Shown here: piece after piece, positions 3,384 through 46,747 of the stretch
Numbering within the stretch: position 1 is the stretch's first letter
Layout of the letters: every line of letters begins with the position of its first letter
Virus record (IMG/VR): IMGVR_UViG_3300012936_000028
Span: 1 to 46,747 of that record
Reading direction: 5' to 3' (one strand)
DNA length: 46,747 bases
From: a virus
Notes under the pieces: model-generated
Databases searched by the model: none
What the model saw: the letters and a program-made list of their open reading frames with translations, nothing else
What the model was told of the DNA's origin: nothing
Made by a program: the position numbers and the translations under genes

Positions 3384-5006
3384 TTACTTCCTAATTAACC
3401 AATCTAAATTACCTAATGGGTTATTTCTTGTTATTTCACTATTTTTATCTGTAAATTTATTGCCTGGCATAAAAACTGGTATCATTGGATTTACAGAGCT
3501 TTGATTATTTCTATAAAAAGGTGATATTATTGTATTATCAACTTTCGTATTGTTAACTTCCATGCCTTTTAAAATAGCATCAGCTTGCTGCATTTGTGCA
3601 ACATTATAACTGCTCGAATTACTTCCAGCTAACCAGCAACCAATAGCAATCGACATAATGAGGTCATCATTATAACCTTTCATAGCTGTTATTTTTTTAC
3701 CATTCCATATAAATGTTTTTAATTCTGAAAAAAGTCTGTGAGAGTAAGTTTTTACCACGCCGTTTCTAAGACTTTCTTCAAGATTAGCAAGAATCTTATC
3801 TCTACTTTCTTTACTTGTAGTAAATCCTGCTTTTCCTATGTTGTTTGATCCACCGTAAAGATATTCGTATTTTTCTTTTTCTTTTGCAAAATAAATATTT
3901 TTATAGCCTAAATCAGATAACTTAACAAGCATTGTATAACCATAAGCGTTATTTTCTGGGCAAACCATCGCTGTATTGAATCTCTTGGCAATATCGTAAA
4001 CTAGTGAAGCAAATTGATCCGGAGGTATTTTGCCTTTAAACTCTGAGGATATCGACATGTTTTTTGTGTTTATTACATGAAATGTTGAATAGTCGCCACT
4101 GTCACCTCTAGCAATGTCAGCTGATAGTATGTAATTTACTCCTTCAACTGGATATTCCCAATACCATATATTATTATTAGGCCCGCTTTTTTCAATAGGC
4201 TCTTTAGTTAAAACTCTAATTTTGTCTAAAACATCGTTTGTTAAAAACGTATCACCAGATGATGCAAAATCACAAAGAAGCTCTTGCGCAACTTGTTTTT
4301 TAGACATATTCTTGGTTTCTTTTTCAAACCAACTATCATTTCTTTCTGGATGAACATCCCACATAAGCTTTATAGAATTAAATTCATTTTCTTTTCTTTC
4401 AGCTTTTGTGTATATTTCATGATACTGTCCACCAACGCCATTTGGCGTTGAAAGAAGAATAGCTCGGCCGCCAGTGGACAATGTTGGGTATAGACCCATC
4501 CAAAGCTCGTCAAAATTTCTAACAAATGCGGCTTCGTCGACTATCAAAAGAGATAAAGCTTCTGAACGTCCGGCATCTTCTGACGTGGGTACTGCTTTAA
4601 TTTGTGATCCATTGGAAAATTCAACCTGCTGCTTGTTATTAGCAGTTATAGTAGGTACTAATAGCCATTTCGGCATTGATTTTATATAAGTCTTAACTTT
4701 TCTTATAAAATTTTGAGCAACTGCTAATTTTGTTGCAATAATCAATATGTTTTTTTCTTTATAAAAAACGGATTGCCAAACAGCATATGCAGCAACTAAA
4801 GTTGACAAACCTAACTGTCTAGACTTTAATATGATATTAAATCTATGCTCATTAAAGTCTTTAACACAATCATCTTGAAAAGGAAATGTATTAAACTTAA
4901 TTAATCCACGTAACGGGTGTTGTATTTTTAAATACTTGTTCATAAAGTAGACAGGATCTTTGCCACACTTTATTATTTCATTAATTTGCCCGTTTCTAGT
5001 TTTCAT
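3384..5006 (-). CDS. 17: Terminase large subunit, gp17-like
   Basis: ATP-driven DNA packaging motor with a headful nuclease. The 540-residue length is close to the T4-type norm (610 in T4). Visible motifs are the Walker A-type SRQLGLST at 62-69, Walker B LLIVDEAAF with Asp157 and Glu158, the ATPase coupling motif LLSTPNG, and the RNase H-like nuclease core. The nuclease core shows Asp297 in SADIARGD, an acidic block around CPENNAYG, and a C-terminal YNDDLIMS. The usual Walker A lysine is replaced by Leu67 (T4 has SRQLGKTT); Lys61 or Arg63 may serve instead, as in other deviant terminase P-loops. The ATG at 5006 lies 7 bases after the upstream stop and has no strong Shine-Dalgarno, but a TATAAATA box sits 20 bases upstream. 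The portal gene follows after two bases. Confidence 0.95.
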   Translation of the reverse strand: MKTRNGQINEIIKCGKDPVYFMNKYLKIQHPLRGLIKFNTFPFQDDCVKDFNEHRFNIILKSRQLGLSTLVAAYAVWQSVFYKEKNILIIATKLAVAQNFIRKVKTYIKSMPKWLLVPTITANNKQQVEFSNGSQIKAVPTSEDAGRSEALSLLIVDEAAFVRNFDELWMGLYPTLSTGGRAILLSTPNGVGGQYHEIYTKAERKENEFNSIKLMWDVHPERNDSWFEKETKNMSKKQVAQELLCDFASSGDTFLTNDVLDKIRVLTKEPIEKSGPNNNIWYWEYPVEGVNYILSADIARGDSGDYSTFHVINTKNMSISSEFKGKIPPDQFASLVYDIAKRFNTAMVCPENNAYGYTMLVKLSDLGYKNIYFAKEKEKYEYLYGGSNNIGKAGFTTSKESRDKILANLEESLRNGVVKTYSHRLFSELKTFIWNGKKITAMKGYNDDLIMSIAIGCWLAGSNSSSYNVAQMQQADAILKGMEVNNTKVDNTIISPFYRNNQSSVNPMIPVFMPGNKFTDKNSEITRNNPLGNLDWLIRK

Positions 5007-5425: not shown

Positions 5426-5695
5426 TTACGCTTTGATATTTGGTCGCCAGCCTTTTTTCCATTTAACTTTATTATGATAATAGTAAGTTATATAACAATT
5501 TTCACAAACGTTAGCCTCTTTCATTGCTTCAACATCTTCTACAGTAGAAATTAGTGTATCACAAAAACTACATGAAATGTCAACAGGCTTATAACCTATT
5601 GGTCTAACAAAACGTATGCCGTTGTATTTTTTTTCTTCTAAATTTTTGTCAATTTTGTGCCATTTATCGTCATCATTATTATCTACAGTTAACAT
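5426..5695 (-). CDS. Small zinc-ribbon protein
   Basis: An 89-residue protein with two Cys pairs, CSFC and CENC, about 25 residues apart (residues near 43 and 68). This is a typical four-cysteine zinc ribbon. The C-terminus is rich in Tyr, Trp and Lys. The ATG at 5695 lies inside the end of the Mre11-Rad50 gene (17-base overlap), so the two are probably co-translated. Zinc-ribbon proteins of this size are common in phages and may bind nucleic acid or host transcription factors. No specific function can be read from the sequence. Confidence 0.8.
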   Translation of the reverse strand: MLTVDNNDDDKWHKIDKNLEEKKYNGIRFVRPIGYKPVDISCSFCDTLISTVEDVEAMKEANVCENCYITYYYHNKVKWKKGWRPNIKA

Positions 5696-8600
5696 AAGAG
5701 TCTTGACCTTTCATTGAAATCTCTATATTTTTATCTACAATATCTTTTATCGCATCAACATGTGATATTATCAGTATAGTCTTAAAATATTTTTTTAAAC
5801 TATTAAGAAGTCTTGCGCAAGCTTCTATGTTAGTATCATCAAGGGCTCCAAAACCTTCATCAATAATAAATATGTCAGACTTTGGAAGATAAGATATGTT
5901 AATTAGTGCAACTCTAATAGCAATAGAAGCAATCATTTTTTCCATTCCACTAGCACATTCAATAATTCTTTTTGAATCACCATAGTCTATATAAACGTTT
6001 AAATTGTTGTTAAAAGATTCTTCTTGAATTTCTATTTTAAAAGAAGTCACGCCATTGAGAATATTATTGATTTCTTTGTTAATTCTAGGTAAACAAGAAT
6101 TAATAAGAACAGCAGGTATACCTTTTTTTGAAACTGCGTATGTAAACATATCATAAAGTTTCCATTCTGAAATTATTTTACTATAATTTTCTTGACGGCT
6201 TTTTATTTCTTGAATACTTCTTTTCAGTCTAAATAATTCAAATTGTTTTTCTTTGTTTTTTCTTTCTAAGGAGAATATATCATCTTGTACTTTATTTAAT
6301 TTTGTTTTGCCTTTTTCAACTTCTTTAATTATATTGTCATTGTTTGATTCTTTAAGCTCGCTAAGAATAATTTCTAAATTTTCAAGTTCTTTTTTTAAAT
6401 TTAAACTTTTTTCTTTGCAAATTAATTCTTTTTCTAAAAGTCTTTCTAGATCAAGTTTAAGACGATATTCAGAGTTTAGTATTGAGTTGTATTTTTTTAT
6501 TTTTTTATCAATTTCTTGCCCTTTTAACTTATTAATAACACTTCTGATCTCAAAAATTGAACCTTCTATTTCAGATATGTTATTAGACATTTCTTTGCTA
6601 TTGTTTTTAGCTTCGTGGGCTTTCTTTATAAACTTACAATTTAAGAAATGGTCACCGCATGGAACTTGGTCGAGTATCTTAATTTCTCGATTATCAGATT
6701 TTTGTTGATTAATAAGATTTTTTTTCTCAAAATTAAACTTTTTAATTTTGTTTAGAAGATTGTCTAGTTTTTGCTTGTCACTTTCAAGATCACTGATAGT
6801 GTGATTCAACTTAAAGTTTTTAATTTTTTCTAATTTTTCTTTTATTAAATCTAAATTGTTTTTTATATCTTTAACGTTTATTGTATTTTTATCAATTTTA
6901 CTTTCAATAAATTGTATTTCTTTGCTACACGAATCCATTGTGTAGCCTGATGGGTGTTTATTAATATTTTTGTCTAAATTTGATATATTAATATTTATAG
7001 CTAATTCTTCAGATCTTAAATTTGATATTTTTTCTTCATTTAACTCTATTTCTCTACTATTATTTAAAATATCTTTATTTACATTTTCAATTAAAAAGTC
7101 CCAATTTTCTTCGTTTATTGATTTTAATTTATTTTTTAATACAATATAGTCTTCTCTAGAGTTTTTATGTAAATTTTCAAAAATATCTAGATTAAGAAAT
7201 TTTGATAAAACAGCTTTTCTTGCACTAGACTTTTCTTTAATAAACGTATTCATTTCTCCTTGTGAAGCAAAACTTGTATAAAGAAAGTCTTCAGCAGAGC
7301 CAATTAAGTTTTTCAATATTTTATCAGTTTCTCTTCTCTGCTCTTCAGTTTCATCAAAATCAATATCGTTTCTTTTAAGTTCTAGACTTGTGCTAGCGGA
7401 AGTTATACCTTTTTTATTTGTTTTTTTAATAGTTTTTCTGATTACATCGTAGTTTTTAGAACCAACTGAAATATTAACATTAGCAGTACAATCGCCTTTT
7501 CTAATGTTAACAATATCTTGATTTTTTATTGAACCTCTATCTGATGTGTTAAAAAGAGTGTACATTAAAGTACCAGGTATTGAAGACTTACCTGATCGAT
7601 TGTTACCAAATAACCCTACTACACCTGAAAGATTTGAAAAATTAATATGGTTATCTTTCCCGTAAGAAAAGGTGTTACTAAAGCTCATTGAGTTAATTGA
7701 CCAATTATCTTTAAACATAGATAAAGTCTCTGGTATCTCATCTAATTTAACCTTAAAAATACTATTAAGACTGTCAAGAGTTTTTTTGTCAATATCTTGA
7801 TATAAACTTTTTAACAATAAATTTCTTTCACTACATTTTCTTATATCAAAATTATTTTCTTTAATAATGTTGTTGTTCGATCTAGCATGTTCAGGTATGT
7901 TGCTTAAAACTTGATAAACAATTTCTTTTGCTTCTTTATCGTTCTTTAAGTAATAATGTAATAATTTTATTTCTGCCTGAGAGATATAATTTTCTGATTT
8001 TACTCTAAACCTTGTTTTCTTTTTTATTCTTTCACAAAACTTTATTGTTTTTTCAACAGAATCTTTCCAGTCAATTGTTATAAAAGGATGAGGGTTATCT
8101 ATTTTAATAAACCTACTGCTAAAGTCATATTTGTTTTCAATTTCCCATATCAAGTAACCTTTGAGAATATCTTCACCATAGTTTTGTTGTATAGTTGATC
8201 CTGGATAGGCAACTCTTTTTTCTGAATCTAGATACTGCATTTTGTGAATATCACCTAAAAATGCAAAGTCGTATTCATCAAAAAAGTCTAGTCCCACTTC
8301 ACCATCAAGCTCCCAGTCGACATCTGTCTTAGAACCCCATACTGCGCCGTGAAAGCAAGCAATATTAATCTGATTTTTAACAGGTTTAACTAAGTCCCAG
8401 TTTTTCTGGTCAAAACAAGAAAAAACTGCCCAATTCATATCAGTATTAGGTATCGGATATACACCACTTTTTTTATAGAGAAATATGTTGTCGTTATTTA
8501 ATGCTTCCACTATCGGCGTTATCGCATCTTGTCGATTTTCATTTAAAATTAATCCATCATGATTACCTAAAATTACATGAGTAGGCGATATCTTAGCTAG

Positions 8601-8807
8601 TTCTGTAAACCACCACGTAAGATTTTCTATCAGCTCTGGGGTGATACCTTGTGTTTTAGAGTGTACTATATCGCCACCGATGAAGATAATATCAGGATTT
8701 TCTTTTTTTAAGCTGTCAAACAAAGATCTGAAGACTGTTTTATATTCATCATGTCTTTTTAAACTTCTCCAATGAATGTCTGATATGTGAGCAAATTTTA
8801 CTGCCAT
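5679..8807 (-). CDS. Single-chain Mre11-Rad50 (SbcD-SbcC, gp47-gp46 fusion)
   Basis: A 1042-residue protein joining the two subunits of the recombination nuclease that T4 encodes as gp47 and gp46. Residues 1 to about 340 are a calcineurin-like phosphoesterase with Asp10 and His12 (SDIH), Asp46 (GGDIVH), Asn82-His83 (LGNHD), a later FHG motif and GDIH. From about residue 375 comes a Rad50/SbcC ATPase: Walker A GNNRSGKSS at 401-409, Q-loop ASQGEMNTF, long charged coiled coils, signature ASGMEK (about 949), Walker B IIDEGFGALDD with Asp983-Glu984, and H-loop ISHVDA. The coiled-coil apex has Cys717 and Cys724 (CX6C) instead of the canonical CXXC zinc hook. Its likely role is DNA end processing in recombination-dependent replication. 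The ATG at 8807 follows AAGG, 9 bases after the primase stop. No internal stop or frameshift separates the halves. Confidence 0.93.
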   Translation of the reverse strand: MAVKFAHISDIHWRSLKRHDEYKTVFRSLFDSLKKENPDIIFIGGDIVHSKTQGITPELIENLTWWFTELAKISPTHVILGNHDGLILNENRQDAITPIVEALNNDNIFLYKKSGVYPIPNTDMNWAVFSCFDQKNWDLVKPVKNQINIACFHGAVWGSKTDVDWELDGEVGLDFFDEYDFAFLGDIHKMQYLDSEKRVAYPGSTIQQNYGEDILKGYLIWEIENKYDFSSRFIKIDNPHPFITIDWKDSVEKTIKFCERIKKKTRFRVKSENYISQAEIKLLHYYLKNDKEAKEIVYQVLSNIPEHARSNNNIIKENNFDIRKCSERNLLLKSLYQDIDKKTLDSLNSIFKVKLDEIPETLSMFKDNWSINSMSFSNTFSYGKDNHINFSNLSGVVGLFGNNRSGKSSIPGTLMYTLFNTSDRGSIKNQDIVNIRKGDCTANVNISVGSKNYDVIRKTIKKTNKKGITSASTSLELKRNDIDFDETEEQRRETDKILKNLIGSAEDFLYTSFASQGEMNTFIKEKSSARKAVLSKFLNLDIFENLHKNSREDYIVLKNKLKSINEENWDFLIENVNKDILNNSREIELNEEKISNLRSEELAININISNLDKNINKHPSGYTMDSCSKEIQFIESKIDKNTINVKDIKNNLDLIKEKLEKIKNFKLNHTISDLESDKQKLDNLLNKIKKFNFEKKNLINQQKSDNREIKILDQVPCGDHFLNCKFIKKAHEAKNNSKEMSNNISEIEGSIFEIRSVINKLKGQEIDKKIKKYNSILNSEYRLKLDLERLLEKELICKEKSLNLKKELENLEIILSELKESNNDNIIKEVEKGKTKLNKVQDDIFSLERKNKEKQFELFRLKRSIQEIKSRQENYSKIISEWKLYDMFTYAVSKKGIPAVLINSCLPRINKEINNILNGVTSFKIEIQEESFNNNLNVYIDYGDSKRIIECASGMEKMIASIAIRVALINISYLPKSDIFIIDEGFGALDDTNIEACARLLNSLKKYFKTILIISHVDAIKDIVDKNIEISMKGQDSYVNCR

Positions 8808-8816
8808 TTTTATACC

Positions 8817-9818
8817 TTAAATTAACGCTATTTTTGACAATAGCTTTGATTCTTTGTTATATAGTTTTGCTGTTTCTAAGCAGCTCTGAAATTGTGAGAA
8901 TGTCATGGCGCCTACATCATCAGCGCATCTTGTGTCTAAAATATTTACCTTGATATTGTATGAAGATAACAAATCTGCTATAGCAATAGTTTTATAATAT
9001 ACATCACTGTCTAAAGCTAAATTAATTTCAGTAGAGTTTCTTACTATTTTTTTAAATAATAACATATCCTCTGTTAATGAGGATCCTAGCAGACAGGTTG
9101 CATTATCATTTGTTTTAAGTAAGTCTAGTGGACCTTCAACTATTGTAAGAGGTAAACTCCAATCAATATTTATATCATTAAAAATTATTAATTTTTTTTG
9201 AACGCTAGCATTTTTATATTTATAAGAATCTTTAGAGCTGACATCGATTTTTCTTGATGTATAAAAATTAACTTCACCGTTTTCGTCTAAAGAAGGTATT
9301 ATTAACGATCTTCTAAAATCATTTTTATGAGAATAACCAACTTTCAAAAGCCAAAGCTTATGTTTAGATATTCCTCGACTAAGTGCATATTTAAAAATAT
9401 CTCTTACGTCCGGATCATTACTATTATAGTCTGTTGCAAGAAGTCTAAAATCTTCAGGAAAGTCAATAGGTTCTAAAAATTCTGAATTATTTTGCGTAAA
9501 AGTCCAGTCATTGTCAAGATTACTGAGTATATTGTCAAAATCACTTAGTTTTTTTGTAACAGATTTAAATAGATTAGATGCTTTCTCTTTTTTACTTGGA
9601 TTAATTTTAGAAACAAGATATGAAACATTTGATCCTTTTTTATCACAAAGCCAGCAATGATAAATATTTTTTTCCAAATGGATTGCTAATTTTAGCTTGT
9701 TTTTATTGTTATGTTTGCAAAAAGGACACCAAATGTTAATGTTTTTACCATCTTTTGATAATGATGTGTTTAAAAAGCTTTCTAGAAAACTTATTTTTTC
9801 ATTGATTGTTATTTTCAT
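8817..9818 (-). CDS. DnaG-type primase, gp61-like
   Basis: A 333-residue primase that makes RNA primers at the replication fork. The N-terminus has a CHC2-type zinc ribbon: Cys31, Cys34, Cys55 and Cys58 (CPFC and CWLC). A Toprim domain follows with TIVEGPLDLL (Glu228), a DSD motif near residue 266 (LALDSD) and TRCADDVG. The length matches T4 gp61 (about 340). No helicase domain is attached, so the partner helicase must be encoded elsewhere. The ATG at 9818 lies inside the end of the RuvC-like gene (20-base overlap). It is one of three DNA-metabolism genes embedded in the structural block. Confidence 0.9.
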   Translation of the reverse strand: MKITINEKISFLESFLNTSLSKDGKNINIWCPFCKHNNKNKLKLAIHLEKNIYHCWLCDKKGSNVSYLVSKINPSKKEKASNLFKSVTKKLSDFDNILSNLDNDWTFTQNNSEFLEPIDFPEDFRLLATDYNSNDPDVRDIFKYALSRGISKHKLWLLKVGYSHKNDFRRSLIIPSLDENGEVNFYTSRKIDVSSKDSYKYKNASVQKKLIIFNDINIDWSLPLTIVEGPLDLLKTNDNATCLLGSSLTEDMLLFKKIVRNSTEINLALDSDVYYKTIAIADLLSSYNIKVNILDTRCADDVGAMTFSQFQSCLETAKLYNKESKLLSKIALI

Positions 9819-10377
9819 AATTATAAATTAATGCCTTACAGATTACATATGCGTCAGACATATCATAACAACATTCATGAAATTTTACAACACCTTTGTT
9901 TGGGCCAGACTTTAAAGTTTTCATAGGCCAATTAAAGTTTTTAATATTATTTTGTGTCCATTGAAATACTTGTTCTTTTGTGTTAATATTTAATTTTTTA
10001 TTAATTTTTATTTGTAAATTTTTTCTCGCGCTATTAACATTTATATAGACAGGTACACTATTAAATACTTCATAGCACTGATAAGATACTATGCCATTAA
10101 ATCTACTAAGTTGTGACAAAGTTTTTGCTGAAGAGAAACCTTTACTAAAGCTTTGAAATGCTTCTTCTATAGAAATATTAACACTATCAGCAAAATCATA
10201 ATTCTTTTTAAAGCTTAAAAGTTTTTCTTTTACAAGTTCAGACTTTTTAAACATACATTTAGTTTTTCTTAAGTCTATATAATCTAATAAAACTAAATCT
10301 TTTTTGTAATTTATTAAGCAAAAGCCTACAATTGAAGTAGAAATATCTAACCCAAAATAACAAACTTTATTTTTCAT
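9799..10377 (-). CDS. RuvC-like Holliday junction resolvase
   Basis: A 192-residue protein with the RNase H-like core of RuvC resolvases. Asp11 sits in FGLDIST on the first strand, Glu71 and Glu72 are in ISIEEAF, and the C-terminal acidic pair Asp172 and Asp175 is in DMSDAYVICKA. These are the positions of the catalytic carboxylates in RuvC. It is expected to cut branched DNA before or during packaging, a role filled in T4 by the unrelated endonuclease VII (gp49). The ATG overlaps the stop of the 1091-residue tail gene by one base (TAATG). The family is clear; its precise substrate is inferred. Confidence 0.85.
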   Translation of the reverse strand: MKNKVCYFGLDISTSIVGFCLINYKKDLVLLDYIDLRKTKCMFKKSELVKEKLLSFKKNYDFADSVNISIEEAFQSFSKGFSSAKTLSQLSRFNGIVSYQCYEVFNSVPVYINVNSARKNLQIKINKKLNINTKEQVFQWTQNNIKNFNWPMKTLKSGPNKGVVKFHECCYDMSDAYVICKALIYNYENNNQ

Positions 10378-42454: not shown

Positions 42455-43657
42455 TTAAAAATTGCTCTTAAAAAATTTATTATAATTATTTAATATTTTA
42501 CTCATATTAAAATTTTGTTTAATTATTTTTTGCCTGCTTGCAGCAATGTCCTTGTAAAATTTTATGTTTTCAAAGAATATTTTTAATTTATTTAACATGT
42601 CATTTTTATCAAATTCAGCCCATTTAGGGCTTTTATCTAGATCTACAAAGTTTATGTCATTTTTAAATTCTATTAAATCAAAATTAATTTTTAAAAAGTC
42701 TTCTTGCAAAAATTCTTTATAAGCTGAGTAATTTGTTGCTATTATTGGAAGACCGCAAGAAGCTGCTTCAACTAAAGGTAATCCCCAGCCTTCTGCTCTT
42801 GTTCCGGTAAGCATACAAGTTATTTTATTAGACATATACAAGTTTTTAATTTCTTGAATAGAAAAATTACCAAACAAAAAAGTAATTTTGGATAAATCTT
42901 CTTGATCAATATTTTTCTGAATACTATCCACAACTACATTTTTTAATTGCTGAGTATTTTTACCTGCGTTTACTTTAAGAATAACACCAATGTCTTTGTT
43001 TTTACAAAATTTAACAGCGCATTTAATTGTTTTTATAATATTTTTTCTATCTGCATCTGGGTGTGAAGCTGTAATCTGTCCCATTATCAATATGTTTTTG
43101 TCATACTGCAAAAAGTCAAAATAACTTGAATCTTCTTTTATGTGGTCAAATTCATTATAATACCACTCGTTTATTACTTTTATTTTTCTTTTTAGTTTTG
43201 TTTTACTGTTATTAGAAGTCTTGACAAAAGACATTCTGGTGAAATCTGAAGGTGTTATTATAATATCCATCAGATTGCATGCTTCAATCCAGCTTTCTTT
43301 AACAATATCAGCTTCAAATCCAGCAGTTACTCCTACGTTTTTGCTTGCTATGTTTGTCCATTCATTAGGCAGTAATACTTGATATGAAACATCAAAGTCA
43401 ATATTTGCAAAATTTTTTCTTGCATAGTCTAGCATTTTTTTTATAATACCGTTGTTAAACTCTTGGTTTAAAATCCACGAGGTATTACCCCAGTCTGTTG
43501 GTTGTAAAAACAAGTCAATATCATTTCTTTGTGACAAAGCTGTAAAAACTTGTCTTGAATGTACTCCGTAGCCTGAGCTTGTAAACATTGGGCCCTTTAA
43601 TAAAACTTTTTTTACTTTAATTTGACTACTTCCACATTTGTTCTTTGTTTTTGACAC
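42455..43657 (-). CDS. Glycosyltransferase, GT4-like (GTG start)
   Basis: A 400-residue GT-B fold glycosyltransferase that transfers a sugar from a nucleotide-sugar donor. The N-terminal acceptor-side loop GPMFTSSGYGVHSRQVFTAL and the donor-side motif GTRAEGWGLPLVEAASCGLP (with the E-x7-E pair) are typical of family GT4. The GTG at 43657 has a GAGGA seven to eight bases upstream and lies within the previous gene, overlapping it by 46 bases. No in-frame ATG occurs before residue 24, inside the conserved loop. The acceptor could be a virion protein, phage DNA or host surface glycan; nothing here decides this. Confidence 0.85.
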   Translation of the reverse strand: MSKTKNKCGSSQIKVKKVLLKGPMFTSSGYGVHSRQVFTALSQRNDIDLFLQPTDWGNTSWILNQEFNNGIIKKMLDYARKNFANIDFDVSYQVLLPNEWTNIASKNVGVTAGFEADIVKESWIEACNLMDIIITPSDFTRMSFVKTSNNSKTKLKRKIKVINEWYYNEFDHIKEDSSYFDFLQYDKNILIMGQITASHPDADRKNIIKTIKCAVKFCKNKDIGVILKVNAGKNTQQLKNVVVDSIQKNIDQEDLSKITFLFGNFSIQEIKNLYMSNKITCMLTGTRAEGWGLPLVEAASCGLPIIATNYSAYKEFLQEDFLKINFDLIEFKNDINFVDLDKSPKWAEFDKNDMLNKLKIFFENIKFYKDIAASRQKIIKQNFNMSKILNNYNKFFKSNF

Positions 43658-44862
43658 TTAAAATCCTCGACTGTCTTTCTTATTGATTTGTCCCATAAGT
43701 TAATTGTTTTTTCATAATTAAACGCAAAATTTGCGTAATTTATTACTTTTTCACTGAGTTTTAATTTTTCTTCAAAATTCATTTTATACATTTTCATAAT
43801 GGCAGTTGCAACATCTTGATTATCAACGTAGTCTTCAAAAATATAGGGTACATTTTGACTACCGACAAGAGACTTATTTTTTATATCTATTGCTATACCA
43901 TTTTCTGTATTGTCTCTAAAATCTATAACTTGTCTGTATAATCCTCCAGTTTTAGCAGCAATAATAGGTGTACCAGTCATCATTGATTCAAGCGTTGTTA
44001 AACCAAAACCTTCATTAAAGCTTATATTTAAACAAACATCTGAGATGTTGTGTAAAATGTTAATATGATCTGTTTCAACTTTTTCTGTAGAAAAAGCGAC
44101 TGTGTCTAATATGTCTAAGTTGTAACCGATTTCAAATAAATTGCATCCTGCAATATCCTTAGGATCCGTATGAAGTAAAAGTGTAACATTTTTTCTGTCT
44201 TTTTTGTTTAAACTATTAAGAAATAGTTTCCAAGAATTTAATACGTCCCCTGGTCTTTTTCTTTTGCAGTTTCTATTCATCCAAAGGCATACAAAATTAT
44301 TTTTTCTTTTCTCACCTAATATTCTTTTCTTTTCACTTTCTTTTAAGTTATCGTTAATTTTATAAAAAACAGACTTTGGAAAAGCATGAGGAATAAAAGT
44401 TGTTTTCTTATCATAGTTTTCTTTACACATTAAATAAGTCAAATAAGAGTGACAATTAATAGCGTCTGTTGCGTCATACATCCAATAATTAAATTTAGGT
44501 GTAGGCTTATTATCCCAAACATGCCACCATAAAATAGGACAAACTTGTCGTATTTCATCTTCAATTTGAAATAACCATGTAAAGAATCTCGGATCAGTAA
44601 ATATTAATAATGCATCAGGTTGTTCGTTTAAAATAACAGATCTTAATAGCGCTGGACTGCCAAACCCGTCTATAGGTTTTATATAGAAGTTGTCATTTAC
44701 TTTAACTGTGCTGTAATCCTGATGCTTTATTGCAGCACCTAGTTGAATAAATTCATAGTCGTTTGTTTTGAGTAAACCTTCAACTAAGAACTTTGTTTGT
44801 ACACCTACTCCGCTTGGCGATAGCGCATGGTCTGAAATTATTAAGATTTTCTTTTTACACAT
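43612..44862 (-). CDS. Glycosyltransferase, GT4-like
   Basis: A 416-residue GT-B fold glycosyltransferase. The N-terminus carries KKKILIISDHALSPSGVGVQ, the Gly-rich acceptor-side loop. The donor site has NISFNEGFGLTTLESMMTGT followed by PIIAAKTGG, the E-x7-E region of family GT4. A frame runs back to a GTG at 44901, but I choose the ATG at 44862. It has AGGAAA upstream, straddling the nuclease stop, and this gives a 7-base gap instead of an overlap. Its 3' end overlaps the second glycosyltransferase by 46 bases. The two are similar in fold but not close copies, so they probably act in sequence or on different linkages. Confidence 0.87.
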   Translation of the reverse strand: MCKKKILIISDHALSPSGVGVQTKFLVEGLLKTNDYEFIQLGAAIKHQDYSTVKVNDNFYIKPIDGFGSPALLRSVILNEQPDALLIFTDPRFFTWLFQIEDEIRQVCPILWWHVWDNKPTPKFNYWMYDATDAINCHSYLTYLMCKENYDKKTTFIPHAFPKSVFYKINDNLKESEKKRILGEKRKNNFVCLWMNRNCKRKRPGDVLNSWKLFLNSLNKKDRKNVTLLLHTDPKDIAGCNLFEIGYNLDILDTVAFSTEKVETDHINILHNISDVCLNISFNEGFGLTTLESMMTGTPIIAAKTGGLYRQVIDFRDNTENGIAIDIKNKSLVGSQNVPYIFEDYVDNQDVATAIMKMYKMNFEEKLKLSEKVINYANFAFNYEKTINLWDKSIRKTVEDFKCQKQRTNVEVVKLK

Positions 44863-44869
44863 TTGTTTC

Positions 44870-45703
44870 CTATTTGCAATAGTCAGTATTTTTAAATTCA
44901 CAAAACATACACGAGTCTCTATTTTTTAAAAAAAACTTTTTTTCTACAGTTTTAATCATACTTCTAACTAGCTTTTGTGATCTTTCTAAGTTTTTTGGAC
45001 CTGAAGAAACTTTTACAAGTTGACATGATTTTCCTGTTGTTTTAACCTTTTTAAGCAAGACAAAACCACACTGTATATCTTTCATATCTATATTATTTTT
45101 AGTTCCCCAAAAGTGTTTATAAAGTATAACTTGCGCTTGTGTTTTAAAGTCTCTTTGTTTATCTAAAGACCAACCTCTTCCATTGGAAGTTTTCCAATCT
45201 AAAACCCAATACTTATATTTGTCTTTATGTGGAACCTTTATAATGCAATCGATATAGCCTTTAAACTTTGTATCAATGTTTTCTATTCTTTCATATAAAG
45301 CTTCTTCCGCTGATTGAAATTCCCAATTAGGAAATGTTTCGTCTAAAAAACTAGGAATAGAACTAATGCTTGCTTCTGCCCACTTTAGCCAATCTTTTAA
45401 CTTGTTATGTTTATATTTCCAACCTTGTATTTGTGCTTTCTGGCTTTGCAGCTGAATAAAGTCTTCTGAATCAAAACCGTGTTCATCCCAAGCTAACTCA
45501 ATCTTGTTTTGTGCTTCTTTAATTTTAAGTTCTTTTGTTTTAAGATAGTGTTCACATGCATCGTGGATTATTGTCCCGTAATGCAAATGCGGACTTTCTT
45601 CAAACGTAGATAACTTATCTATGTATAATAATTTATGCCGCCAAGGACATTCTTTCCATTGACGAACTTCTGAATAAGAGACATGCTCTTTTAAAATAGT
45701 CAT
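44870..45703 (-). CDS. Cas4/RecB-like PD-(D/E)XK nuclease with four-cysteine cluster
   Basis: A 277-residue nuclease of the RecB/Cas4/AddB type. Motifs are SYSEVRQWKECPWRHKL with Cys19, HYGTIIHDACE with His47, a catalytic Asp in GYIDCII, Asp169 and Lys171 in VLDWKTS, and QAQVILYKHF (QxxxY). Cys265, Cys268 and Cys276 at the C-terminus (CMFCEF, DYCK) complete the pattern of a 4Fe-4S cluster with Cys19. The family degrades or trims DNA ends and acts in recombination. The frame is open from a TTG at 45721, but the ATG at 45703 with GTGAGG upstream is preferred. That ribosome binding site lies in a hairpin (45708-45745), suggesting translational control. No CRISPR genes are near, so a Cas role is not implied. 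Confidence 0.88.
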   Translation of the reverse strand: MTILKEHVSYSEVRQWKECPWRHKLLYIDKLSTFEESPHLHYGTIIHDACEHYLKTKELKIKEAQNKIELAWDEHGFDSEDFIQLQSQKAQIQGWKYKHNKLKDWLKWAEASISSIPSFLDETFPNWEFQSAEEALYERIENIDTKFKGYIDCIIKVPHKDKYKYWVLDWKTSNGRGWSLDKQRDFKTQAQVILYKHFWGTKNNIDMKDIQCGFVLLKKVKTTGKSCQLVKVSSGPKNLERSQKLVRSMIKTVEKKFFLKNRDSCMFCEFKNTDYCK

Positions 45704-45760: not shown

Positions 45761-46747
45761 TTAGCTGATAATTGCTTTTGAAATCAAGCACCAGTTTGTG
45801 CCATCGTATATTAAAGTTGCTGTTGACTTATTAGCGAGTGAAATATCAGCGCCATCTAGACAAAGAACATCGTTGGAGCTTGAATTACCTGCATTTGTTA
45901 AGGTAAGTGTTCCACCTGATCCACTATGTTGCAATATCAACATCATGCCCGGTTTGCCGCCTGTAATCTTAGCAATTGAGTTATTACCTGAATGAGGTGT
46001 AATTTTTTGATATCCCAATGTTGCAGCAAACTCAGTTGCACCTGATGCTAAGGCAATTGTATCTGGATGATAAACAGTTGAGCCAAGCTGAAGCATTGCA
46101 GGCGTCGAATCAGAATTATCTCCTGTAGAGCCTTCATTTTTATAGTCAAACTTAAACTTTTCTGCTGAAGGTGTTGCCATCTTGTGCCAAAGTCTAAAGT
46201 AATCAGCAGACTCATCATAAATAAGACCCAAGAACTTGTCTGAACCACCATCACGATGCTTAGCATATATACCAATATCTCTGGCAACCTCATCAATTAC
46301 GTTATTTCCAGAACTTATTAAAACTAGTGGATCAACAACTGTTAGGGTTGAACCTCCACTTTCGAGACCACTACTTACCGTTAAAGAATTGGCAACAGTG
46401 ACTGAGCCTGAAAACGCAGAAGTTCCTGTTCCTGCAACAGTAATATTACCGCCAACAGTTGTATTACCTGATGTTCCTGCAACAACAAACTTATCCTGAT
46501 TAACTTTCAAAGATCCTGAGGATGCAGCTACTTCAAACTTTGAATTGCTTCCAAAGGTTCCGTTTATGGCAAAATTTCCATCGATAGTAGTTGCGCCAGT
46601 TACGCCTAACGTTCCTCCAACTGTTGCATCATTAGTTACTCCAACTGAAGCCAGTGTGGATGCTCCAGTCACACCTAATGTTCCTCCGACTGTTGCATTT
46701 GTGCTCACTGTAGCTGCTCCAGTAACTGCTAATGTCGAACCGTTAAA
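45761..46747 (-). CDS. Tail fibre C-terminal part with GGTLGVTG repeats (5' end cut by window)
   Basis: The frame is open to the window edge and yields 328 residues. The GTG at 46708 is in the middle of the repeat and is not the likely start. The visible N-terminal part carries near-repeats of TNATVGGTLGVTGAST (about 24-residue spacing) followed by NGTFGSNSKFEV and similar turns, as in beta-helical phage fibres. From about residue 135 the repeat gives way to a globular tip (DEVARDIGIYAKHRDGGSDK). The end reads SLANKSTATLIYDGTNWCLI, a closing strand set common in phage fibre and appendage proteins. The gene ends with TAA at 45761, before the hairpin. A host-binding role is inferred. Confidence 0.8.
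   Translation of the reverse strand, partial: FNGSTLAVTGAATVSTNATVGGTLGVTGASTLASVGVTNDATVGGTLGVTGATTIDGNFAINGTFGSNSKFEVAASSGSLKVNQDKFVVAGTSGNTTVGGNITVAGTGTSAFSGSVTVANSLTVSSGLESGGSTLTVVDPLVLISSGNNVIDEVARDIGIYAKHRDGGSDKFLGLIYDESADYFRLWHKMATPSAEKFKFDYKNEGSTGDNSDSTPAMLQLGSTVYHPDTIALASGATEFAATLGYQKITPHSGNNSIAKITGGKPGMMLILQHSGSGGTLTLTNAGNSSSNDVLCLDGADISLANKSTATLIYDGTNWCLISKAIIS
46600..46747 (-). repeat. Near-repeats encoding ATVGGTLGVTGA in fibre gene
   Basis: The minus strand encodes three related blocks: LAVTGAATV, ATVGGTLGVTGAS and ATVGGTLGVTGAT. They are divergent at DNA level, so they are old duplications kept by protein structure rather than recent tandem copies. The array probably continues beyond the window edge. 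Confidence 0.7.

Follow-up and report, generated by a model that had tools for sequence, protein, structure and literature searches.

Does a virus contig that carries both Mre11 and Rad50 motifs in one open reading frame (ORF) encode a real fused enzyme, and is such a fusion new? We addressed this question in the linear IMG/VR record IMGVR_UViG_3300012936_000028, all 46,747 nt of which are called the window here. The ORF lies at positions 5679-8807, and an Mre11-like phosphoesterase is followed in it by a Rad50-like ATPase. We found that this marine phage does encode the two parts of a DNA-break-processing machine as one genuine fusion, which is not a novelty or a rarity but a further example of a published kind.

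Reading frame and domain organization

5679..8807, minus strand: whole fusion ORF, 1042 amino acids (aa; P0001), ATG at 8807-8805 and TAA stop at 5681-5679, with matches to the expected families

The frame runs for 1042 codons from 8807 to 5679 with zero internal stops, whereas the plus strand across the same positions is stop-rich. Its translation holds SDIH, GGDIVH, LGNHD, GNNRSGKSS, ASGMEK, and IIDEGFGALDD. Thus, the original prediction, which had placed all these motifs in a single 1042-codon frame without a stop, was right about frame and motifs, and only the strand was absent from it. Given the base composition of the window, a stop is expected each ~14 codons, and the probability of 1042 open codons by chance is ~1e-34; together with the Pfam domain matches, this rules out a chance ORF. 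These matches were Metallophos at residues 4-189 (2.2e-13) and AAA_23 at residues 375-597 (2.5e-6). In addition, phrog_77 (SbcC-like) of PHROGs matched residues 250-1039, the SbcC, Rad50, and SbcD models of NCBIfam matched, each below its cut-off, and a sequence search of the PDB returned Rad50, SbcC, Mre11, and SbcD chains. The protein therefore shows the mark of the viral fusion class, a single frame that begins like Mre11 and ends like Rad50. The domains are as follows.

8091..8807, minus strand: Mre11/SbcD-like phosphoesterase domain, residues 1-239 (Pfam Metallophos, motif columns, and fold match to SbcD 7dog_A), with motif residues D10-x-H12, D46, N82-H83-D84, H153, and G185-D186-I187-H188
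7893..8090, minus strand: capping domain, about residues 240-305 (secondary structure of the model; 7dog_A match over nuclease plus capping domain)
7740..7835, minus strand: predicted helix-loop-helix, putative Rad50-binding segment, residues 325-356 (model helices 325-335 and 341-355)
7704..7739, minus strand: inter-domain linker, residues 357-368 (alignment of relatives)
7128..7703, minus strand: Rad50 ATPase N-lobe, residues 369-560 (W369, Walker A 401-409, Q-loop Q516; Pfam, alignment, and fold match)
6669..7127, minus strand: ascending coiled coil, residues 561-713 (model helices)
6627..6668, minus strand: hook, residues 714-727, with C717-x6-C724 instead of CxxC (alignment and model)
6135..6626, minus strand: descending coiled coil, residues 728-891 (model helices)
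5682..6134, minus strand: Rad50 ATPase C-lobe, residues 892-1042 (signature S953-G-M-E, Walker B D983-E984, D-loop L989-D990, H1016; alignment and fold match)

The AlphaFold model, built on a 70-row alignment of the window protein plus relatives, had a mean predicted local distance difference test score (pLDDT) of 83.1 and a predicted template modeling score (pTM) of 0.52. In structural comparison (VIA-align 2), residues 2-300 matched S. aureus SbcD 7dog_A (Z 24.5, root mean square deviation (rmsd) 3.0, 275 aligned, 21% identity), and residues 369-1042 matched E. coli SbcC 7yzo_D (Z 31.8, rmsd 3.0, 351 aligned, 20% identity). The domain search and structure prediction proposed with the original prediction thus gave both halves complete. 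The second half shows the bipartite ABC head (Walker A, Q-loop, signature, Walker B, D-loop, and H-switch) split by a coiled coil. Ahead of it, a region of the length of a capping domain and helix-loop-helix is followed by a short linker, as in the fusion class; in the model, the helices 325-335 and 341-355 precede the linker, and the first Rad50 strand (369-377) follows it. The segment bounded by residues 355 and 369 is 12-16 residues long in 70/70 aligned rows. Meanwhile, the linker at 357-368 is variable in letters (mean conservation 0.29), and W369 is invariant in the same alignment.

It had also been claimed that a covalent 1:1 link alters assembly. However, the ordinary Mre11-Rad50 complex has 1:1 stoichiometry (M2R2) anyway. 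Furthermore, according to Yoshida et al. (PMC3175470), ~28 A separate the Mre11 C-terminus from the Rad50 N-terminus, a gap across which a linker of 9-12 residues only tethers neighbors, and our model shows the same order. From its position and from that paper, the helix pair would be the Rad50-binding segment.

Occurrence of the fusion

To estimate how common the fused form is, we searched IMG/VR. P0001 alone found one relative, and an alignment of four members (the window and the loci L004, L001, and L003) found at least 591 among 599 candidate stretches, so the low first yield reflected the search method. The best 80 relatives were kept. Among them, 79 are fused in one frame, and the remaining one (L016) is cut at the contig end. 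When blastp was applied to the 85 loci L001-L085 (L005 is the window itself), a single ORF spanned both halves in 81. Of the other four, L016 is the cut locus, L002 is interrupted, and L003 and L017 are fused despite partial blastp matches: the 1202-aa ORF of L003 was matched at residues 1-638 only, yet it aligns throughout, and the 1057-aa ORF of L017 was matched at its end only, yet tblastn covers 1-1039 and it aligns in the 70-row set.

The 80 kept relatives were picked by likeness to a fused query, which biases them toward fused forms. A less biased scan of IMG/VR used a DNA pattern for the Walker B/D-loop alone (DEGFGxLD) and returned at least 120 stretches, of which 80 loci were listed. 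There were 51 fused loci, 27 that start inside the ORF and are not judgeable, 1 non-Rad50 locus (L159), and 1 split locus (L100), where a 374-aa nuclease with a GHIH motif stands beside a 755-aa Rad50. Thus, 51/52 judgeable Rad50-type ORFs among the loci listed are fused; because the pattern is selective for this lineage and shares several of its contigs with the first set, this is a rate within the lineage and not for all phages. The original prediction regarded the fusion as unusual and named a survey finding it routine as an outcome that would refute this. Routine is what we found (79/80 relatives and 51/52 motif-anchored ORFs): the fused form is the rule within this lineage, normal in a large group of aquatic phages and common in marine phages.

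In phage isolates and other phage records (tblastn, 50,697 records), full-length fusions were few. They were found in Microcystis phage Mel-JY01, the uncultured huge-phage records LR756501/LR756503, and Tenacibaculum phage PTm1, and in an interrupted form in LR756508. Other matches mostly covered one half only, and the eight regions fetched were all split pairs. In the viral fold library, the best matches were giant-virus proteins of 969-1389 aa (Tupanvirus, Yasminevirus, Harvfovirus, and Terrestrivirus), matched by fold only, and PTm1 ranked sixth. The scan of GTDB gave one relative among 72 candidate stretches, L095. This locus (VGGU01000046.1) is a 7.1 kb contig labeled as a Bacteroidetes metagenome-assembled genome, it matches query residues 7-598 at 28%, and it may be a phage contig.

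Several further observations were made on related genes. In the 484 kb phage LR756508.1 (L002:2944-7169), the fused gene is broken in the nuclease domain after GDIH by a 305-aa ORF. The inserted ORF, Cys-rich at its N-terminus, carries a TnsA-like endonuclease domain (Pfam 5.8e-6) and resembles a homing-type insertion. Rfam gave no match in the window or in L002, and no group I intron was found there to explain the interruption. In addition, Listeria phage LMTA-57 (L213:3917-6946) has one annotated 3,030-base 'recombination exonuclease' (1009 aa, Metallophos_2), which may reflect either a fusion of its own or a change of frame at the strain level. T4 gp46 matches positions 285-954 of the 967 in the phrog_77 profile, and the fusions start near 177-250. 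This suggests that phrog_77 already holds fused members.

Active-site and hook residues

Conservation was counted in 82 aligned fusions (L001-L085 minus L002, L005, and L016). In the nuclease half, D10 and H12 are present in 76/76 ungapped rows, D46 in 81/81, and N82-H83 and H153 in 82/82, so that phosphoesterase motifs I-IV are found with their metal ligands, as in Mre11/SbcD. In the ATPase half, K407, S953-G954, D983-E984, and H1016 are present in 82/82.

Motif V (residues 185-188, positions 8244-8255) is different. It reads GDIH in 79/82 and ADIH in 3/82 fusions; its Asp (D186 in the window) is invariant (82/82) and stands at the position of P. furiosus His206, as in Mimivirus R555, and the textbook GHxH form occurs in none of the 82. 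PTm1 also has GDIH. Meanwhile, GHxH was found in seven of the eight annotated split phage pairs, and the eighth has GDLH; the split L100 described above makes a ninth pair. The GDLH pair belongs to Klebsiella phage SEL21, which we take to be T5-like from its gene content. Its presence weakens the Asp as a mark of fusion, and, judging from these alignments, strict GHxH is not a defining feature of the phage family.

The hook is C-x6-C in 79/82 fusions, CxxC in two (L001 and L003), and of another form in one (L017). Its sequence motif is PCGDxFPTCKFI(x3)H, and the final His (H731) is present in 69/82. The window protein thus has an altered hook, whose zinc binding is putative, in place of the textbook CxxC zinc hook at the coiled-coil apex. 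As a trait of fusions only, C-x6-C is weakened by a split Moorella phage protein with C-x8-C and by the split L100, where no CxxC was seen there by eye. As a trait of all fusions, it fails in L001, L003, L017, and PTm1, whose hook is CPTC. A literature search of limited depth found no earlier description of the C-x6-C hook, and we do not claim that it is unpublished. The C-x6-C hook (79/82) and the invariant Asp are possibly under-described, and only these two features merit a second look by specialists.

Comparison with known systems

Mre11/Rad50 fusions were described in 2011 by Yoshida, Claverie, and Ogata (PMC3175470), who listed Mimivirus R555 and twelve others, including that of Bacillus phage 0305phi8-36. 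The same paper reports that R555-like genes abound in aquatic viral fractions, where phages are their probable carriers, and that R555 has Asp replacing a metal-ligand His (His206 of P. furiosus Mre11). R555-type fusions and the window protein share the Mre11 N-terminal and Rad50 C-terminal halves, the Asp for His206, the helix-loop-helix with a short linker, and the occurrence in aquatic viral metagenomes (PMC3175470). However, the window protein is shorter (1042 vs 1351 aa), its lineage is found on long phage contigs, where terminase, portal, and primase genes lie next to it, and most of this lineage has the C-x6-C hook; the comparison with R555 covers regions other than the hook. The suspicion of 2011 that the aquatic R555-like fusions are phage genes thus gains direct evidence from long contigs with terminase and portal genes. 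In another study, jumbo-phage SbcC and SbcD were treated as partners, and the passages available name no SbcC-SbcD fusion (PMC7824862). A paper on hinge-less SMC proteins (PMC12153180), as far as its available passages go, is not relevant to the fusion. Our literature search on Mel-JY01 and Shirahamavirus found nothing on the fusion gene.

Among annotated phages, Mel-JY01 encodes a full-length fusion (WWT39521.1, 1066 aa) that is 33% identical to the window protein, adjoins a primase-like gene, and has GDIH. However, it has a CxxC hook, and it is annotated only as 'AAA domain containing protein'. The PTm1 protein (BBI90467.1, 'DNA repair exonuclease', 1318 aa) is likewise a single-chain fusion with GDIH, but it is longer and differs in its CxxC hook and gene neighbors. 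T4 has the same two enzymes as the sole SbcC-type gene of the phage, but gp47 and gp46 are separate genes there, as the original prediction had said, with small genes between them, a GHFH motif V, and a CPTC hook. The SbcCD of E. coli and S. aureus shares the fold of both halves at ~20% identity across aligned residues, and it consists of two polypeptides. Finally, D12/D13 of SEL21 share the Asp in motif V but are two overlapping genes with a CxxC hook.

Origin of the fusion

Trees were built from 19 hand-picked fusions (the window, 17 of the 82, and PTm1) and nine split pairs, all from phages. The fusions fell on one side of a branch in both the nuclease tree (97/92) and the ATPase-head tree (100/99). 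This pattern agrees with a single fusion in the history of the phage lineage. Against a single event, long branches meet in these trees, the split rows are only nine, and cellular or giant-virus rows are absent; in addition, Yoshida et al. inferred recurrent fusions with a wider range of organisms (PMC3175470). It is a tentative and rather unlikely idea that the phage fusions are one old lineage of single origin, marked by the motif V Asp and, in the marine branch, by a widened C-x6-C(-x6-H) hook. Were zinc held by this hook inside a single chain, or in another manner between two chains, the joint for tethering DNA ends would differ from that of T4 and cells.

Function and alternative readings

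The search with phrog_77 gave one strong match per record in ten fusion records (nine from IMG/VR, and Mel-JY01) and in T4, where the pair is split. Further matches were weak (two in Mel-JY01 and one each in two IMG/VR records, best 7e-6). Metallophos likewise gave one match per record in the same 11, except for one IMG/VR record with a second frame of 242 aa. Because the strong match is the sole one in each record, the fusion occupies the place of gp47/gp46.

We consider it likely that the fusion replaces T4 gp47/gp46 and acts as a single-chain enzyme of SbcCD type, with a homodimer equivalent to M2R2. The ORF would be the only known enzyme of this type in the phage, its one chain comprising a manganese-type phosphoesterase, capping domain, Rad50-binding helix pair, short linker, ABC ATPase, two coiled-coil arms of ~150 residues, and a cysteine hook. 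Very probably, the mechanism is the usual one of Mre11-Rad50. Homology to T4 gp46/47 and E. coli SbcCD suggests that a pair of identical chains would form the equivalent of M2R2, in which ATP would clamp the two ATPase heads together and hide the nuclease sites. When a DNA end is met, hydrolysis would free the nuclease to cut, leaving a 3' single strand for recombination-dependent replication, and the hook would tether arms or DNA ends. The known working of Mre11-Rad50 is unchanged by this finding. A natural one-chain Mre11-Rad50 of ~1042 residues could suit biochemistry or cryo-EM, and its use as a simple model enzyme, put forward in the original prediction, remains a reasonable prospect.

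Some points weigh against this single-chain SbcCD-type reading. We know of no biochemistry for this protein. With GDIH rather than GHxH in motif V and C-x6-C rather than CxxC in the hook, it might bind metal and join its arms in other ways than the model enzymes do. How the domains sit relative to one another is uncertain in the model, as its pTM indicates. Moreover, the window is one linear record of 46.7 kb, and a second, separate SbcCD may be encoded elsewhere in the phage.

Three other readings were weighed. First, the fold might be kept for a main role in DNA tethering, host DNA breakdown, or counter-defense, with the nuclease changed or lost through the His to Asp change of motif V. The invariance of the Asp in all 82 fusions, with an active site shifted from the textbook form, would agree with this, and T4 gp46/47 is annotated as needed for host-DNA degradation too. 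However, all other metal ligands are conserved, Asp can bind metal, and the split SEL21 homologue has the same change, so we regard this reading as unlikely. Second, one gene might give two products, if an internal start or a protease freed the Rad50 half to form a split pair as in T4. The linker letters are poorly conserved and residue 364, a little ahead of the Rad50 half, is a Met, but in 70 relatives Met does not rank among the three most frequent residues at that position, and the nearly constant linker length is what a tether would require; this makes two products quite improbable. Third, the joining of adjacent genes by an overlooked stop or a frameshift near 7650-7750 (residues ~353-386) was rejected as a negligible chance because, although metagenome contigs are in principle error-prone, nothing specific was found and homologues on other contigs are in frame, including L004, a separate IMG/VR record 85% identical across the full length with the junction in one frame, nearly all of the kept relatives, and the single annotated coding sequences of the complete Mel-JY01 and of PTm1. 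The single-chain enzyme of SbcCD type thus remains the reading that we prefer.

Genomic neighborhood

Homologues of the neighboring genes were counted by tblastn in 85 fetched loci (L001-L004, L006-L085, and L088), some of which are too short to hold all neighbors.

9799..10377, minus strand: RuvC-like resolvase, upstream (weak PHROG match, 9.5e-6); homologue at 68/85 loci
8817..9818, minus strand: DnaG-type primase-like protein with CHC2 zinc ribbon, upstream (Pfam/PHROG); homologue at 78/85 loci
5426..5695, minus strand: Cys-rich 89-aa ORF, downstream, overlapping the 3' end of the fusion; homologue at 46/85 loci
3384..5006, minus strand: T4-type terminase large subunit, downstream (Pfam/PHROG); homologue at 81/85 loci

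The gene order is RuvC-like, primase-like, fusion, terminase, and portal. Between the fusion and the terminase are the small Cys-rich ORF and a 123-aa ORF, and a portal homologue was found in 76/85 loci. The Cys-rich ORF had no match in Pfam or PHROG, and it contains two CxxC pairs. At the other end of the window, two overlapping group-1 glycosyltransferase genes lie at 42455-44901, both weakly matching the 'GT4-conflict' family, and a repeat-rich protein with a phage depolymerase C-terminal domain is encoded at 45761-46708, at the window end.

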